Shown piece after piece: positions 49,315-64,000 of a stretch of DNA of 64,000 nt. Under the pieces are notes generated by a model. The model made no database searches, was not told where the DNA came from, and worked only from the letters and a program-made list of their open reading frames with translations. The translations under genes were made by a program, and so were the position numbers. The stretch lies in assembly GCA_022821085.1 (NCBI GenBank), contig JAJEEG010000006.1, positions 1,385,330-1,449,329 of the forward strand, read 5' to 3'. How positions within the stretch are numbered: position 1 is the first letter of the stretch; each line of letters begins with the position of its first letter. Source of the stretch: Candidatus Latescibacterota bacterium (GTDB lineage Bacteria > JAAXHH01).

Positions 49315-51561
49315 CTATCTCAACATCTCGACGAGTTCCTGGTGCCCGGCTTTCTCCGCCCGGGCCAGCGGGGTGGCCCAATCCGCGCCGCCGCCCCGGG
49401 GATCCGCACCCCGCTCCAGCAGGAACGCCGCCAGGTCACGATGGCCCCAGCGCGCGGCCCATCCCAGCGGGGTGGAGCGCCATTCGTCGTCCACGGCCTC
49501 GATGGAAGCGCCCCGGTCCAGCAGCAGGGCAGCCTTCTCCACGTCGCCGATCACGGCCAGTTTGTGCAGGTAGGTAACGCCGTGCCAGTTCGCGTTATTG
49601 GGATCGGCGCCATGGTCGAAGAACAGGTTCAGCATGTCGAGGATATCGTCGTTGGGGGTCAGGGCGCGTCCGTCCAGGTGCCAGCCCTTGCGCCGCCGGA
49701 ACGCGTACCCCATGTAGTTGTTGGCGTACCACGGCCGGTTCAGCTCCGCGCCCGCCCGGATCAACATTTCGATGATCTCCCTGCGCGCGAAGCCAGCCGC
49801 CATGCAGAGCACGCCGTAGTCGCCGCCATAGTTGGCCAGGCCGGGGTCCGCGCCGAGGAGTTCGCCGACCACGGGGATGTTGTCCAGCAGCACGTACATG
49901 CTGATGTCGGCCGTCGCCCCGTGGCGGTACAGCAGGTTGATCATCTCCTCGTTCTTCCCCTGGCCCAGGGCCTGGGAAAGGGGCACGCCGCTGGATTCCA
50001 CCGGAGCGTTGGGATCGGCGCCGTGATCGAGCAGCAGTTTAGCCGTTTCCAGGTGATTGCCGGCCACGGCTTCGTACAGCGCGTGTCCCCGGGGCGCGTT
50101 ATGCTCCGGGGCGTTGGGATCGGCGCCGTGGTCCAGCAGGAGTTGCACGATGTCGGTGTATCCCTGTGACGCCGCGCTGAACAGCGGAGAGCGTCCGCAG
50201 GTATCATGGTCGTTGGCCAGGTTTCGGTCTTCCGCGAGGAGATGCCGCACGCGCCGTTCGTCCCCCAGGGCGCACGCGACCGTCATGCTGTAGTTCGCCC
50301 CTCTTGCGATCAGGTATCCGGTCAGCAGCGGATCGAGTCCTCCACGTGACTTGCGTGCGCGGAACACGGCCACGTGCAGCGGTTTGCATCCGTCCCACCT
50401 GACCGGATCCGGTTCGGCCCCCTTGTCCAGCAGCAGGGCCGTCATTTCCAGGTTGTGCGCTGCCACGGCCTCGTGGAGGGGACGGTTGCCGCGTTCGTCC
50501 GAGGTGTTGATCAACTCCGGAGAGGCCTCGAACAACGCGCGGGCTTCCTCCAGGTCGCCCCGCCGGACCACTTCGCAGGCACGTTCGCCCACGGGCGGTG
50601 CGCTGTACCGGGACGCGACGGCGTCCGTCAGGAGTCCGGCAATCTCATCGTATCCGCGGTCCCTGGCCCGTTCGAGCGGAGGTACATGATAGTCCAGTCC
50701 CGACGCCGACGAAGGGTCCGCGCCGTGGTCGAGCAACACGCGGACCGCTTCCGTGTGCCCTTCCCGGACGGCGAAGTGCAGGGGCTGGTAATACGCCCAG
50801 TTTCCGTTGGCCAGCCCGGGATCCTCCTGCAAGAGCGACCTGATCCGGGCAAGATCGCCTTCCGCCGCGGCCAGCAGCATGTCCCAGACCTTGTTCGGCT
50901 TGCCATCCATGAAATGGCCTTGCTCGCTCGTGAAATCGGGTCGTATCCAATGCATAACTCGGTCTCCGAAGGTATCATTTGCAGACGGCGCGTGATCGTT
51001 CAGTTCGCTTGACAAAGTGCGAAGCAGACTCGGCTTCAACTTGCTCCGTGCTTCGAACAGCCTTTTGCGCACCGTTCCTGCTTTCAATCCCATGAAGTTA
51101 GCGATTTCGGGCGCCGAATAGTCTCCAATATACCGTAGTACCGTGACTTCTCTCAGTGTTTCTGGCAATGCTTCCACCGCGCTGCGGACTTTTTCGCTCA
51201 TGTCCCTGCGTGCTGCCCGGTCCAGGGGACTTTCATCCGCCGCCTCGATGTCACCCTCCATGGGTACGAAACGGAAGGTATTTCGTCTCTTGAACCGGAA
51301 ACACTGCCACTGAATGATCCGCCTCAGCCAGGCCGGAAACGACTCCGGCTCGCGAAGCGACTCGATGTGCTGCCAGGCGGCGATAAATCCTTCCTGCGCG
51401 GCATCTTCGGCCAGGTGCCGTTCACCCAGAAGACCCAGCGCGTAACCGAAAGCCATGTCCTGGAAGTTGGCCACCACCTTGCCGAAAGCGGTACCGCGTT
51501 CCGCATGAGGTAAAGACCGGTCGGCTGAAACCCGAATGTGTTGTTTGAGGTCGTTGGTCAT
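49315..51561 (-). CDS. ECF-type sigma factor fused to ankyrin repeats
   Basis: 748 residues. Residues ~24-93 are sigma region 2 (GYALGLLGERHLAEDAAQEGFIAAWQHIESL, WLRRIIQWQCFRFKRR); ~125-178 are region 4 (ALPETLREVTVLRYIGDYSAPEIANFMGLKAGTVRKRLFEARSKLK, a helix-turn-helix with the GxxxGTVRKRLFRAR-like pattern). From ~225 to the end are about 14 ankyrin repeats (LLDHGADPNAP and the like), including CALGDERRVRHLLAEDRNLAN. I know of no characterised sigma factor of this layout. The ankyrin part could inhibit or direct the sigma part by binding a partner. No anti-sigma gene is adjacent. The start ATG has no strong Shine-Dalgarno. Confidence 0.9.
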   Translation of the reverse strand: MTNDLKQHIRVSADRSLPHAERGTAFGKVVANFQDMAFGYALGLLGERHLAEDAAQEGFIAAWQHIESLREPESFPAWLRRIIQWQCFRFKRRNTFRFVPMEGDIEAADESPLDRAARRDMSEKVRSAVEALPETLREVTVLRYIGDYSAPEIANFMGLKAGTVRKRLFEARSKLKPSLLRTLSSELNDHAPSANDTFGDRVMHWIRPDFTSEQGHFMDGKPNKVWDMLLAAAEGDLARIRSLLQEDPGLANGNWAYYQPLHFAVREGHTEAVRVLLDHGADPSSASGLDYHVPPLERARDRGYDEIAGLLTDAVASRYSAPPVGERACEVVRRGDLEEARALFEASPELINTSDERGNRPLHEAVAAHNLEMTALLLDKGAEPDPVRWDGCKPLHVAVFRARKSRGGLDPLLTGYLIARGANYSMTVACALGDERRVRHLLAEDRNLANDHDTCGRSPLFSAASQGYTDIVQLLLDHGADPNAPEHNAPRGHALYEAVAGNHLETAKLLLDHGADPNAPVESSGVPLSQALGQGKNEEMINLLYRHGATADISMYVLLDNIPVVGELLGADPGLANYGGDYGVLCMAAGFARREIIEMLIRAGAELNRPWYANNYMGYAFRRRKGWHLDGRALTPNDDILDMLNLFFDHGADPNNANWHGVTYLHKLAVIGDVEKAALLLDRGASIEAVDDEWRSTPLGWAARWGHRDLAAFLLERGADPRGGGADWATPLARAEKAGHQELVEMLR

Positions 51562-54167: not shown

Positions 54168-56750
54168 CTAGGGCGAGACCTCGGACGGTCCCGACTCGTA
54201 CTGCGGGGCATTCGACATGTTTCCGAAGAGACTGAGCCTGCCGGACAGGGCGGCCTCCACGTCCAGTGCGTACGCGTGCGCGACGGTCGTGACGATGGGC
54301 CGGATCTGTTTCTCGACGTAGTGCCCGTAGTCAATGGGGGATGTGATCCGGCCCTCCGGCTGCGGACCGTCAAGGGTAATCACGTACCGGATGACGCCCG
54401 TCGGGTTTTCCATGAGCCGGGCCGCCTTGACGTGGGGAGGCACCGAACGGGTGTAGGATTCAACGGGCTTGCGCAGGTTCTTCCGGTAGACGAGCAACTC
54501 GTCCCGGCGACCGTTGCGGACCTCCTGGACCCAGCGGTAGATCTCCTCTTCGATCTCGGCGCCGGGCACGTCGTGAAATACCCGGTCGAGCAGCACGCCC
54601 TGCAGCCGGTGGGCCAGGTCGGTCCAGTCCCTCCGCACGGCTTCCATGCCGACGATCTCCACCCGGTCGCCGTCCGTCCCGCGCCGCAGGCCCGCATAAC
54701 CCTTGGCTCTGCCGCGCTCGACGTCGCCCCGCATGGAAGGCAGCAGGAAACGGTGGTAGCGCTTTTCGAGTTCCAGTTCGAGGAATGACGTCACGCCGTA
54801 CCGTTCCCTCACGTGCGCGGCCAGCCGGGCATTGATCCGGTCGCATACCGCCCGCCCCAGGTCCATGGATTGGTCCGGTCCCGGTCTTTCCGCCGGTTCG
54901 AGATCAACGAACACCGAATCCGTGTCCCCATAGAGCACTGTGTATCCGTCTTTCTCCAATTCATCCCGGCACCACTTCAGAATGTAGTGTCCGAATTCCG
55001 TGATCGCACCGGCCAGCTGCGGCGCGGCGAAGCGGCAGGAAGCAGATGCCAGCACGCCGTAGAAGGAATTCATGACGATCTTGTAGGTAAAGGAAGCGAG
55101 TTCGTCCCCGGTAGCCCTGGCCTCCTCCCGGCGCCTGAAAAACTGTTCCAGCATGGAAGGCAGTATTCCCGGAGTACGGGAAAACCGCGCGCCATTGGGG
55201 GCTTCGAGAAATCCCCCGGTTCGGTCGCCGTCGGACACGCGGCCGTGTTCCGCGCTCGACCCGTCAGATCTTGCTTCCTGGCCCTCGATATGCGCCAGGG
55301 GATCGATGTTGAAGGTGCGGATGATGGACGGGTAAAGGCTCTTGAAGTCGAAGACGAAGACATTTCGGTAGAGGCCTGCTTTCGCGGGTATGATCAATCC
55401 ACCCGGCGCGCCGGCGCCCGGGGTGCGGTCCACGCCGGTCGTCGGCGCCACCATGCCGCGCTGGTGCAGCGCGTTGATGTAGATGTTGTCGAAGGCGGCC
55501 ACGCTGACCCACGCCCGTTCCAGCGGCAGGCCCGTCAGCAGTCCCCTTCGCAAGGTCAGGTTGATCAGTCCTTCCGCCTCCAGGATGTCGAGTACCAACC
55601 TCGCGTCCTCGAGACAGTAGGCACAGAAGGTCGCCCGGTCCTCGCGATAGACTTCCGTGATCTTTTCCGCCCGGGAACGCCCTTCATCCTCTTCCAGCAG
55701 CTTGCCCCTGCCCAGGATGGCGTTGGCCACGGTGTCCAGACGGTAGTCCTCGAACCGCTGCAACGTGCCGCGGAGCAGATGCAGGGCGTCCAGGATCTGC
55801 CGGCCGTGGATCACCATGGTGCTTCCGCCCCAGATCTCTCCGGACCGGTACCAGGACTGGTCATCGGTCCGCCCGAGTTGAAACGGCACGTTCAGGTCCC
55901 TGAAACGTCTCTGCAGGACCTGCAGGTCGAAGTCGACCAGGTTCCATCCCGTGATCAGGTCCGGATCCATTTCGAGAACGCGGGACGACAGGCCGCGCAG
56001 CATCGACGCCTCGTCGGGCCAGCAGACCAGTTGCGGGGGATCCCCTTCGGCCGGCTCGCTGACCATGTGTATTTCTTCCGCGTCGATGCCGCCGCCCGAA
56101 CCCGACAGGACCAGGCCCACGGCGTAGATGGTGGTCGCTTCGGGGTCCGTTTCGATATCCAGGGCCAGCACGCTGAAGGTCGGCTCCCAGTATTCCGGTC
56201 GAAGTTCGGGGTTGGCATATACCCGGTCGACCCGATCGCCGGAGGTCCAGGCGCCGCTGATCTTCACTCCGCCCCGGAGGCCTCGCCCGATCAGGTATTG
56301 CCTGCCGAAGGGGAGATCGCCCTCGTAGGTCCGCGTATGCTGGGATTCCAGGCTCTTGACCAGGTTGCGCTGATCGCGCACGCGCTCGAACTGGATGCCT
56401 GCCACGGGGTCGCCGTCCATCGTGGTGAATTCCGACCGCACCACCCGGGCGGAAACCCCGTCCGAACGGATCCGGGAGGCAGCCTCCGGTTCTTCCGAGA
56501 CCCGGACGTAGAGCGTGGGCGAAACCCGGTCGTCCATGAACTGGAAAGTCTGGCCGTCCTGGAGTTTACCGACCCCGCAGATCACGTCCCGGCCGTTCTC
56601 CGCCCGATGGAACACGTGGAGCAGGTATCCCACGTGTTCCGCCGCGGCCTCACTGTCGAGTGCGGATGCTTCTCCACCGGGAGCGGATGCTTCACCGCCG
56701 GGAGCGGATGCTTCACCGCCGGCGTTGCTATGCGGTAGCGCGTTGGACAT
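54168..56750 (-). CDS. polB: DNA polymerase II (family B)
   Basis: 860 residues, a family B DNA polymerase with proofreading: exonuclease motifs [11 protein letters not shown] and [27 protein letters not shown]; polymerase motifs [20 protein letters not shown] (motif A) and [12 protein letters not shown] (motif C). Motif B is [18 protein letters not shown]. Bacterial pol II acts in replication restart and translesion synthesis. Its N-terminus holds EASAPGG repeats. It overlaps the uvrA 3' end by 23 nt, so the two are co-transcribed. Confidence 0.95.
56658..56722. repeat. 21-bp tandem repeat at polB 5' end
   Basis: Two exact 21-bp copies of gagcggatgcttcaccgccg plus a degenerate first copy, encoding the GGEASAP repeats of the polymerase N-terminus. 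The unit is in frame. Confidence 0.9.
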
Positions 56751-59753: not shown

Positions 59754-60710
59754 TCACACGCGATGGTAGTAGAAGGCGAGTTCCTCGTAATCCACGTTGC
59801 TCTTCAGCGTCAGGCGCAGGGGGCTGGATACCCGGGTGATGATGTCCTTGTCGGCGAGCCATTCGCACACCGTGGTCACGCCCCGGAGATTCATCTGGTT
59901 ATCGAACCAGGTCTCGATCTCCGTAACCGACCGGGCCGAACCTTCTTCTTCGAGATAGTCGAGAATCGGCTGGAACAATGTCGTCACGCGGTCGGAGAGA
60001 TAGGCGTCGATTCGCGCGAGCGCTTCCCCCACCGCGTCCTCGGTCTTCGGCCGATCGATCAGGTCCGTGTACACGGCGTTGAAAAACCCGGGATTGAGTT
60101 TGAGCGCCTGCTGGATGACTTCGCGGCCCGCGAGCTGGTCGTGCATGAAGACTTCGATCTGCGCGAGACCGTTGATACAGTACATGATGTAGTGAAAGGC
60201 ATAGTGGAGGTCCCGCCGGACATGCAACCACTTCTCCGCCTTGTACAGGGTGGGGATCACGTGGGAGGCCGCGTGCATGAGCTGGACCTGGCGGTCTCGC
60301 GCGTTTAACGCTTTGATACCGTCGTAGAGGTCCCTTATCGATTCATCGTGGGTGAACAGCAGGCGGCTTTGGGCCAGGGCCGAGTGCATGAACGAGCTTT
60401 GCAGTCCGCCTTCGATCATTTTCCTGAACGCGGAGCGCGGCTGCATGAACACGTGAATATACACGTCGTTTTCGAGCAGTGCGGCGCCTTCCGACACCTC
60501 GTCGTCATCCTTGCTTTCCTTCCTGAACAGTTTCTTGTCGTCCCGCGTTATGACGATCAGGTCGATGTCCGACTTCTCCCATACCCGGTCGGCGGAGAGG
60601 CTGCCGAAGAGTATCGCGGCCAGGACGTGGCGATCCTCCCGCGCCTTGCTCACGAAAGCGTCCAGGGCCGACTCGAATTGCCGATCAACAGCCGAGGGCG
60701 GGTTATGCAT
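59754..60710 (-). CDS. Nucleotidyltransferase-domain protein
   Basis: 318 residues. N-terminal nucleotidyltransferase motif [21 protein letters not shown] (GS...DxD) and [10 protein letters not shown]. The C-terminal ~150 residues are helical, HEPN-like, with an uncertain role ([19 protein letters not shown]). It ends 26 nt before uvrA on the same strand, so likely its operon leader. Weak ribosome-binding site. Substrate unknown. Confidence 0.82.
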
Positions 60711-60837: not shown

Positions 60838-62556
60838 ATGGTAATGAAACCCCTTGATTGGAACGCCTTGCGGCGGCTACTTTGCTCCAGATCCCAGGTT
60901 CCAACCAAGCGGGAATCTCCAGCCATGTACGGCCAGATTCCATGGCCCGAGGATGGTGCAATGCCGGCGTCACCAGCATCAACTGAATCGACTGCATCAA
61001 CTGCATCCGGCGATTCATCCCCGATCCAGGCCCTGCTGGCCCACCGGGGCGGTTTCGCGACCGAGTTGCGGCCGGATCCGACCCTGTTCGAACGGATCGG
61101 CGGCCGGCCCGTGGTCGCGGACATCATCGACGGCCTGTACGACCGGATCGAAAAGGACGCCGAACTGCGTCCGATGTTCACCGGTACACTGGCTCCCGAA
61201 CGCATGAAGCAGAAGGCGTTCTTTGAGGAGTGGATGGGCGGCGAACCGGGCTACACGCGGCACCACGCCTACGGCGGCATCCGGAACCGGCACGGTCACA
61301 TTCACATTACCAGGGCATCCGCCGACCGGTGGCTGTCGCACGTGACCGCGTCGCTGCGGGATCATGTCGGGGACGAACCGCTCGTTGCCGAAGCGCTGCA
61401 CGTTCTCCGGCCCCTTGCCCACGGCCTCGTCAACGAGCAGCAACCCGCCCGGCACGGGTGGGAGATGAGATGTCACCGTGAGAAGCGATGGAGAGCGCCT
61501 GCCAAATTGGCAGCCAGAGGGCAGGCGGAAGCCCTTGAACGCTGCCTGGACGAGGACCCTAATGTGCTGGACGATCCCCGTCACGGCGCGATCATCCTCG
61601 CAGAAGCGGCGTTGCGGGGCCACACACAGGTAGCGGCCCTGCTGCTCGACCGGGGAGTGGACGTGAACATACCATCGGCCCATTCGAGCGACATCATGAT
61701 GACCGCCCACTGTGCCGCCCGAAGCAAGAAGAAGGACGAGACGGCCGCGTACCTGCTGGAGCGAGGTGCGGTGTATGATGTCTTCAGCGCCTGTTTTCTG
61801 GGAGACCGGCACCGGGTATCCGAACAGCTGGATGAAGCGCCCGGCCTGGCCAACGCCCACGATCCCGCCTGCGACCTGCTGCCCGTTACTCCGTTGCACC
61901 ATGCCGTGTATGGAGGGCACGAAGAGGTCGCGAGGATGCTGTTCGACCGGAGCGCCAAAGTCGGCGTAAACAGCACGGCCCTGGTCCGTTACGCCGCCGG
62001 TCGACGGCGGACCGATCTGCTTCGGTTGGTGCTGGACCAGGGCGCGGACGCCACCCGGATCGGCTGCGGCAGATGGGTCCTCGACGAGGAAGAATCCGCC
62101 CTGCTCATCGCCCGCGGCGCCGACGTCAACTATCCCGAAGGAAAATGGATCTGGACGGCCTGTACGGGGAACAACAGCCAGCGGGACGATCCCCGATACG
62201 TGCAGGCGCTGCTGGACAAGGGGGCCCGGATCGACACGGTGCTGCGCGGCGCCGGCGCCCTGCACTTCGCCGCCAAGGCCGGATTCACGGGGGTGATGGA
62301 GGTGCTGCTCGACAACGGCGCGCCGGTCGACGCGCGGAGCGAGAAGGGTGAGACCCCACTGTTCTACGCGCTGAAGGCGGGTCCCCGGGCGGACATGGTG
62401 GAATCGGTGGCCCTGCTGTTGGCCCGTGGGGCGGACCCGACCCATGAAGATAAACTGGGCAAGTCGCCCCTGCGGATCGCCCGCCGGATGAAGCGTCCCG
62501 ACAAGGAACGCATCGTCTCGATGTTCGAAGCCGCTAGTCCTTCCGTGCCGGCGTGA
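60838..62556 (+). CDS. Truncated haemoglobin fused to ankyrin repeats
   Basis: 572 residues (a start at ATG 60961, preceded by GAGG, is also possible). Residues ~83-200 are a group II truncated haemoglobin: LFERIGGRPVVADIIDGLYDRIEKDAELRPMF, GGEPGYTRHHAYGGIRNRHGHIHITRASADRWLSH; His152 is the likely proximal haem ligand and Trp165 the conserved G8 Trp. Residues ~222-565 form about 9 ankyrin repeats, including SACFLGDRHRVSEQLDEAPGLAN. Haem and ligand binding would be expected, with the ankyrin part as output. I know of no characterised protein of this layout. Weak -10-like TATAAC at 60793. Confidence 0.92.
   Translation: MVMKPLDWNALRRLLCSRSQVPTKRESPAMYGQIPWPEDGAMPASPASTESTASTASGDSSPIQALLAHRGGFATELRPDPTLFERIGGRPVVADIIDGLYDRIEKDAELRPMFTGTLAPERMKQKAFFEEWMGGEPGYTRHHAYGGIRNRHGHIHITRASADRWLSHVTASLRDHVGDEPLVAEALHVLRPLAHGLVNEQQPARHGWEMRCHREKRWRAPAKLAARGQAEALERCLDEDPNVLDDPRHGAIILAEAALRGHTQVAALLLDRGVDVNIPSAHSSDIMMTAHCAARSKKKDETAAYLLERGAVYDVFSACFLGDRHRVSEQLDEAPGLANAHDPACDLLPVTPLHHAVYGGHEEVARMLFDRSAKVGVNSTALVRYAAGRRRTDLLRLVLDQGADATRIGCGRWVLDEEESALLIARGADVNYPEGKWIWTACTGNNSQRDDPRYVQALLDKGARIDTVLRGAGALHFAAKAGFTGVMEVLLDNGAPVDARSEKGETPLFYALKAGPRADMVESVALLLARGADPTHEDKLGKSPLRIARRMKRPDKERIVSMFEAASPSVPA
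60973..61017. repeat. Short repeats in globin-ankyrin N-terminus
   Basis: gcatcaactg and gactgcatcaactgcatc units encode the STESTASTASG linker that precedes the globin domain. Confidence 0.55.
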
Positions 62557-63571
62557 TTTCCTTCAGGTAGGATACCAGGGCCTCACGCTCCGGCGTCGTG
62601 CCATGGATTTCAATCCCCACTTCCGCCCATACCAGCGGCGTCGTGCCGTGTTCATCGTCTGTCGCACCCGGATCGGCGCCGGCATCGACGAGCATCTTCG
62701 CAATCCCGGCATCTCCGCACAAATGCAGCGGCGTCTGCCCGGAGTCCGCCCGGGCGTTCGCATCCGCGCCGCAACCCAGCAGCATCCTGACCGTTTCCTC
62801 CCGTTCATGCTGCACCGCGGCGTGCAACGGCGTCCCCACCACGGCGTGCACCCCGATCTTCCCTTCGTATGCCACCATGCCTGCATCGGTCCGGAAAAGG
62901 CGGGTGAGCTGGTCCGTCCTTCCCAGCACGGCAAGCTGGCAGGGATCCGCCGCCGCGCCCCGGTCGATCAGGAACTCCGCCAGCAGGCGACAACGCTCGC
63001 CCCGGGACAGCGCCGAACCCAGCGGTGTGTTGCCATCGCCGTCGGTCGTATCCAGTCGCGCTCCGTGGTCCAGCAGGATCCCGGCCGTCTCCGTGGACAA
63101 CGCCACGTGGATGGGCGGCTCTCCTCCCAGTCCCGGACGGGATGCCGCGCCGGGATCTTTCGCCAGCATTGCCCGAACGGCGGTTACATCATCCAGCAGG
63201 CACGCGGCGTGGAGGTCGAACTTCGCCCCGCCTTCGCGCAACAGCCGGGCCGCTTCCATGTGCCCCCAGTGCGCGGCCAGGTGCAGGGCAGTCCACCCTC
63301 CATAGGAATCGGTACCACCGTTCGGTTCCGCACCATTGCGCAACAGTATTTCGATGACCTTTGGGTCCCCTCGTTCCGCCGCCAGTTGAATCGGCACGGG
63401 ACGTCCTCCCCAGCGCGGGTGGGACACCGGTTCATTTACCATGCCAGGTACCTGGCAAAGGGCTGCTTCGACCCCTGCCGGATCCATCTGCCAGATGGCG
63501 GTTCGCAGTCGTTCCATGGCCGCACCGGCGTGTGAGTCCGCTTGTGGGGCGCGTTCATGGGATTCGGACAT
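62534..63571 (-). CDS. Ankyrin-repeat protein
   Basis: 345 residues. An acidic/Ala N-terminus, then about 9 ankyrin repeats: VPIQLAAERGDPKVIEILLRNGAEPN, TALHLAAHWGHMEAARLLREGGAKFD, the special variant ACLLDDVTAVRAMLAKDPGAAS, TPLGSALSRGERCRLLAEFLIDRGA, TPLHLCGDAGIAKMLVDAGADPG. GAGAGGA upstream of ATG 63571. Its 3' end overlaps the globin-ankyrin gene by 23 nt (convergent). No extra domain. Confidence 0.9.
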   Translation of the reverse strand: MSESHERAPQADSHAGAAMERLRTAIWQMDPAGVEAALCQVPGMVNEPVSHPRWGGRPVPIQLAAERGDPKVIEILLRNGAEPNGGTDSYGGWTALHLAAHWGHMEAARLLREGGAKFDLHAACLLDDVTAVRAMLAKDPGAASRPGLGGEPPIHVALSTETAGILLDHGARLDTTDGDGNTPLGSALSRGERCRLLAEFLIDRGAAADPCQLAVLGRTDQLTRLFRTDAGMVAYEGKIGVHAVVGTPLHAAVQHEREETVRMLLGCGADANARADSGQTPLHLCGDAGIAKMLVDAGADPGATDDEHGTTPLVWAEVGIEIHGTTPEREALVSYLKEITPARKD

Positions 63572-63618
63572 CTGACTATCCTCTCTTCCGTCCTGTCGAT
63601 GCATGGATGCGTGGGCGC

Positions 63619-64000
63619 CTAACTGTTTTTCTCGAGGATCCGGGATAACAACCCGTATCTGCGAACGCCAAACGGGGGATTTCGCCGGATGGACTTCAGG
63701 CGGCGTTCGCATTCCGACAACGCGTACGACCTGGCGCGTCGGGCATTGGGCGTGTCTACCTCGGACAAGGCAAGCAGGGTGTAGTAGAAGGGGAACCGGC
63801 GCCACGCCCCCGCCCCGTCCTGATGGCTCATCAGCACACCGATCCCTTCATCCAGGTGACGGGCATAGTCACCGAGACCACCCGCGGCCATGTGCCGCCA
63901 CACCGACACCGTGCATGGACCGCAGCAGAACGTTCCCCGCGGTCTACCCTTTGAGTGCGCCACCTCGAAACACCCGAGCAGTATGGACGTTGCCGCCTCG
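63619..64000 (-). CDS. Partial CDS, Cys-rich unknown protein (runs off right edge)
   Basis: The reading frame is open to the window end (position 64000); a GTG or an upstream start lies beyond. The visible 125 or so residues contain TFCCGPCTVSVWRHMAAGGL, LLALSEV and CERRLKS, and look like an all-helical enzyme C-terminus. The Cys-Cys-x-x-Cys run resembles a metal or disulphide site. I do not recognise the family. It lies 47 nt from the ankyrin gene on the same strand. Confidence 0.65.
   Translation of the reverse strand, partial: EAATSILLGCFEVAHSKGRPRGTFCCGPCTVSVWRHMAAGGLGDYARHLDEGIGVLMSHQDGAGAWRRFPFYYTLLALSEVDTPNARRARSYALSECERRLKSIRRNPPFGVRRYGLLSRILEKNS

Follow-up and report, generated by a model that had tools for sequence, protein, structure and literature searches.

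A truncated haemoglobin joined to ankyrin repeats in a single chain, kept in bacteria of at least two phyla

The closest described relatives of the protein reported here are group II truncated haemoglobins (trHbs) such as YjbI of Bacillus subtilis (PDB 1UX8) and the Geobacillus trHb (2BKM). Catalase/peroxidase-like roles have been proposed for group O/II trHbs with pockets of this kind, and a basic stretch is typical of group O trHbs (PMC4720485). In YjbI, Tyr63 is needed for peroxidase-like activity and the removal of hydroperoxides from proteins (PMC9536834). Multidomain trHbs, which like our protein join a trHb to another domain, are known with an antibiotic monooxygenase (ABM), a kinase or a nitrate reductase as well as in tandem form (cited in PMC7082302), and none of those named in the citing passage has ankyrin repeats. 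Globin-coupled sensors also place a haem globin N-terminal to another module, but combine a 3/3 globin with a regulatory output domain. Finally, Cj1386 of Campylobacter jejuni is a bacterial ankyrin protein tied to haem, described without mention of a globin, which binds haem through a Tyr and passes it to the catalase KatA (PMC11442138). A published trHb–ankyrin fusion was not found in our literature searches, whose coverage is incomplete so that an earlier mention is possible; to this extent they agree with the preliminary description of the locus, which had regarded the pairing as unusual.

The locus lies in a stretch of 64,000 nucleotides from a Candidatus Latescibacterota genome (“the window”), which encodes one intact chain consisting of a trHb followed by about 10–11 ankyrin repeats. 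An open reading frame of 572 codons spans 60838–62556 (+). Its true start is likely to be the ATG at 60961, because a GAGGAT and an ATG or GTG are kept in most relatives of the genus, whereas the coding match 5′ of this ATG breaks down in the genus homologues, being poorly kept or interrupted by stops. The GAGGAT resembles a Shine-Dalgarno sequence and lies six bases before the ATG (60949–60954, +). The start codon at 60838, from which the gene had initially been taken to run, was discarded in favour of 60961 on the grounds of these conserved signals, and the most likely extent of the gene, also in view of the Pfam matches and the intact homologues, is 60961–62556 (+), encoding 531 amino acids followed by a TGA stop. 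Residue numbers below refer to the 531-aa form; all features of the gene are on the forward strand.

The domain search confirmed the proposed order of a trHb domain followed by ankyrin repeats. Bac_globin (PF01152) matched residues 82–197 in the numbering of the 572-codon frame (E 1.7e-18; score 67.4 bits, cut-off 21), and Ank_2/Ank matches far above the cut-off run from after the globin to the C-terminus. Taking PF01152, 2bkm and the Foldseek comparison together, the trHb domain covers residues 41–158 (61081–61434). Its best PDB sequence matches are the group II trHbs 2bkm (E 9.6e-18), 5d1v and 1ux8, and the AlphaFold model (mean pLDDT 83.7 over the full chain and 91.3 when the globin is modelled by itself) superimposes on group II trHbs with TM scores of 0.85–0.89, all top Foldseek matches being trHbs. 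With YjbI and the Geobacillus trHb it has in common the 2-over-2 fold, Tyr B10, Gln E11, Phe CD1, Trp G8, His F8, a GG motif and the equivalent of Tyr63. Five of the pocket residues are invariant in both phyla in which the fusion was found (six aligned proteins, cross-phylum identity 36–37%): the distal Tyr60 at B10 (61138–61140), aligned with YjbI Tyr25; Phe73 at CD1 (61177–61179); Tyr98 (61252–61254), the equivalent of YjbI Tyr63 (alignment; PMC9536834); the proximal haem ligand His111 at F8 (61291–61293), within RNRHGHI; and Trp124 at G8 (61330–61332), within DRWL. The proximal His and G8 Trp motifs had been picked out correctly beforehand, and the His proves to be retained in the homologues. 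In contrast, Glu80 at E7 (61198–61200), an unusual residue at this position, and Gln84 at E11 (61210–61212) are kept in the window's phylum but not in the second phylum, and the RHxHIHI motif is likewise kept in the window's phylum alone.

The domain also departs from YjbI and 2BKM. Besides the ankyrin repeats and the E7 Glu, the basic stretch HPRLRxR of the group is absent, its place being taken by AYGGIRNRH in the window and GGQQRAH in the second phylum, and RHxHIHI replaces RHxPF; HMHI is present in one stand-alone trHb (L150). Because the basic stretch is missing, we call the domain group II-type and do not file it as a plain group II member, even though Trp G8, Tyr B10 and the nearest structures and sequences are those of group II (O). 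The residues support a haem-competent pocket in which haem would be bound, and they correspond to those of trHbs that bind O2 tightly. No ABM domain was matched by Pfam in the chain, which is therefore not a trHb–ABM chimera, and Pfam and Foldseek revealed neither the 3/3 sensor globin nor the regulatory output of globin-coupled sensors, the 2/2 globin being followed by ankyrin repeats only.

Between the two domains lies a linker (residues 161–180, 61441–61500) in which Cys171 (61471–61473) and Arg178 are invariant in two phyla and R170-C171-H172-R173…W177-R178 is conserved inside the window's phylum; it is modelled by AlphaFold with a pLDDT of about 68 and no sign of rigid coupling between the domains. 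The ankyrin-repeat domain (residues 181–528, 61501–62544) is defined by Ank/Ank_2 matches above cut-off, stacked helix pairs in the AlphaFold model and stand-alone orthologues, and ankyrin proteins are what the whole-chain model matches in Foldseek. The preliminary description had recognized the ankyrin stack and counted about nine repeats, compared with about 10–11 helix pairs in the model. Among the best-conserved parts of this half is the loop CTGNNSQRD (residues 401–409, 62161–62187), a candidate partner-binding site: 12 of the 15 residues from 395 to 409 are identical in the three members that lie furthest apart within the phylum, and C.GNN..R (C401-x-G-N-N) is invariant in both phyla among the six aligned proteins. 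A PADLOC match (PDC-M72A) was dismissed as a generic ankyrin cross-match common to all ankyrin proteins tested.

The ankyrin half has stand-alone orthologues of about 390 amino acids (e.g. L180 and L201), which align over their full length at 33–39% identity, carry no globin and begin, with TGK..SD.LK, at the position of the linker in the fusion. As these orthologues indicate, the ankyrin half is able to work without the globin; it most likely represents an independent protein-binding family and would bind a protein partner.

Of the 14 genomes of the family that we searched, the 12 belonging to the genus all carry the fusion (75–100% identity), which is split across two contigs in one (G011) and frameshifted close to the end in another (G005). 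It is also present in another genus of the family (G001, 58% identity) and in another family of the same order (G014, 53%), and absent from G013 and G015, which have stand-alone trHbs only. No further fusion came up among 384 genomes sampled across the domain; nine long trHb frames from other phyla, inspected by eye, had no ankyrin repeats and turned out to be long spurious frames, tandem trHbs, an apparent ABM–trHb or a trHb with a TPR-like tail. In a second phylum (that of G054), which has ankyrin-only orthologues, a targeted search yielded two fused proteins of 575–576 amino acids (G390 and G391, 36–37% identity), both confirmed by Pfam and alignable from an N-terminal HRGG motif across globin, linker and ankyrins. 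The ankyrin part alone (~390 aa) occurs in 57 other genomes of this phylum, and G391 carries a stand-alone copy in addition to its fused one. No relative of the fusion was found among viral contigs, and no plasmid relative covers 80% of it. The fusion is thus not confined to a single genome and its proximal His is retained in the homologues, the two points on which the initial proposal had been left to stand or fall.

Some other trHbs came to light alongside. L051 (G000:C2:165756–166061), L069 and L072 are small, exported and trHb-like, and each has a signal peptide. Unlike the His-bearing L065, they appear to have another residue in place of the proximal His (SLAEMGI compared with the usual AHKGMGV) and may be haem-free globins. 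L169 (G307:C1:519643–519981) is an exported trHb followed by apparent TPR repeats in one chain, again a globin with a protein-binding repeat, and in L163 and L164, from the related genomes G142 and G278, a lipoprotein-like chain contains two trHb domains in tandem.

The ankyrin tree, in the version built without outgroups, sets the fused proteins of the two phyla apart from the stand-alone ones with a support of 100/99, deeper outgroups giving no resolution; in the globin tree all fused copies form one clade (97/96). Because each tree groups all fused copies, the data suggest a single fusion event, after which the gene would have been inherited or transferred as a unit, although the long branches urge caution. 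An origin of the fusion from the phylum's own stand-alone trHb is unsupported, as the stand-alone trHbs group in a clade apart (100/100) and G014 has both kinds. Pairwise dN/dS is mostly 0.11–0.2 in both halves, although one globin comparison between little-diverged sequences gave 0.36, and places the globin and the ankyrin half alike under purifying selection. Together with the intact homologues in two phyla, these ratios rule out a chance fusion or a frame artefact.

In the window the fusion gene stands by itself: upstream of it lies a divergent nucleotidyltransferase gene (59754–60710), and an ankyrin gene (62534–63805, −) converges on its end with an overlap of 23 bases. The flanking gene order is kept across the genus but not outside it. 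In G001 the fusion is flanked by a convergent MsrA gene and a DEAD-box helicase gene, MsrA being an enzyme of protein methionine-sulfoxide repair; in G390 and G391 a phosphotransferase, a methyltransferase and an AhpC/TSA protein are encoded downstream, the last two to three genes from the fusion at both loci. Neither a conserved reductase or redox partner gene adjoining the fusion nor a linked regulator gene conserved outside the genus was found. Apart from the fusion, no PF01152 match in its own genome exceeds the cut-off; a ferrochelatase is present, and a search for catalase (PF00199) gave no match while the positive controls were detected.

The window also contains part of an ankyrin island (G000:C1:1431366–1479189, from about 46037 of the window to past its end), in which 13 ankyrin frames, most of those in the genome and several of them common to relatives, occupy ~48 kb of 3.75 Mb. 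One gene (49315–51561, −) encodes a 748-aa protein in which sigma-70 regions 2 and 4 are fused to a long ankyrin domain; a 569-aa member of the island resembles its ankyrin half, and relatives of its N-terminal sigma part, mostly in long open frames, turned up in each of the 16 genomes searched in the phylum. In a literature search, no paper dealing with an ECF sigma–ankyrin fusion stood out. Adjoining a gene that resembles uvrA, 54168–56750 (−) encodes an 860-aa protein that appears from its DTDS and DIETD motifs to resemble family B DNA polymerases, which are unusual in most bacteria.

As to function, we tentatively favour, at a probability of about 0.45, the reading that the fusion docks a peroxidase-like or O2/NO-consuming haem module on a single partner, either a protein or a complex. 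It would be a cytoplasmic two-module haem protein, whose N-terminal 2-over-2 group II-type trHb would use His111 to hold a haem that faces Tyr60, Gln84 and Trp124 distally and has Tyr98 next to it, and whose C-terminal ankyrin domain would bind the partner. Haem chemistry, for example hydroperoxide removal by analogy with B. subtilis YjbI, would take place there, and the trHb would have been added once to a protein-binding ankyrin family and then kept. This is consistent with the invariance of Y60, F73, Y98, H111 and W124 in two phyla at 36% identity, the group II trHb fold (TM 0.85–0.89) and the purifying selection on both halves, and also with a genome that has ferrochelatase and no catalase match and with ankyrin orthologues that function without a globin; the MsrA neighbour in G001 and the AhpC/TSA genes near both second-phylum loci add weak context. 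However, Tyr25 and Trp89 of YjbI were dispensable in the tested phenotype (PMC9536834) and conservation of their equivalents is therefore no proof of peroxidase activity; the E11 Gln and E7 Glu are not retained in the second phylum, and the fusion adjoins no conserved reductase or redox partner gene. Moreover, trHb chemistry is not evident from sequence alone: a pocket of this kind, with its tight O2 binding, could also serve for sensing or scavenging. In a gas or redox sensor, a less probable but still serious possibility, the haem ligand or oxidation state would alter the choice of ankyrin partner via the conserved linker. Strong distal hydrogen bonding fits O2/NO sensing, the linker is constrained (Cys171 and Arg178 in two phyla, the wider motif in the phylum), and in the genus the gene sits in an ankyrin-rich stretch with the sigma70–ankyrin gene; yet Pfam finds no output or regulatory domain in the chain, sigma70–ankyrin relatives also occur in G013 and G015, both without the globin fusion, the flanking genes are not common to loci outside the genus, and the modelled linker gives no indication of a rigid coupling. 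The O2, NO or redox sensor acting through protein contact that had been suggested at the outset is accordingly possible but has no direct support, and a trHb sensor whose output would be altered protein contact via the ankyrin domain, without an enzymatic or DNA-binding output of its own, is somewhat unlikely. We prefer the docked haem module to the sensor because of the tight-O2 trHb pocket and the equivalence of Y98 to the YjbI tyrosine; the case for the sensor is built on the conserved linker and on what the architecture suggests.

The names of many carrier MAGs point to animal or sponge hosts and could suggest a host-directed effector, a sponge-symbiont ankyrin protein acting in or on host cells with a globin that guards it or scavenges NO/ROS, but fused relatives are also found in MAGs with open-water-like names (ERR599008 and SI072, which we take to be Tara Oceans and Saanich Inlet). 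Several ankyrin proteins are present in Latescibacterota of sponges (PMC12993501), and sponge symbionts have ankyrin proteins that modulate phagocytosis by amoebae (Nguyen et al, 2014, as cited in PMC6372511); given that the N-terminus reads as free of a signal peptide and the haem pocket is retained as a functional site, we nevertheless regard such a role as improbable. Cj1386 provides a published precedent for a haem-binding ankyrin protein serving KatA, but it uses a Tyr, whereas the fusion retains a tight trHb pocket and has no transfer site, which makes a haem delivery adaptor of this type very improbable, delivery to catalase in particular being unlikely because no catalase gene was found. 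The loss of the basic stretch HPRLRxR and the Glu at E7 might also be expected if the globin served only to cap the ankyrin stack structurally and had lost the use of haem; since every core contact to the haem is invariant in both phyla and the globin dN/dS is as low as that of the ankyrin half, we consider this the least probable reading of all.

The fusion is a real, evolutionarily kept protein that occurs in two or more bacterial phyla and probably represents a haem redox or gas-binding module held against a putative partner protein. The physiological role of most trHbs is open, partly since a lone globin of 120 residues gives no hint of a partner. A trHb that has stayed attached to one specific protein-binding domain in two phyla offers a handle on this question: the partner of the ankyrin domain would reveal where the haem chemistry acts, and the ankyrin-only orthologues provide a natural globin-free control.
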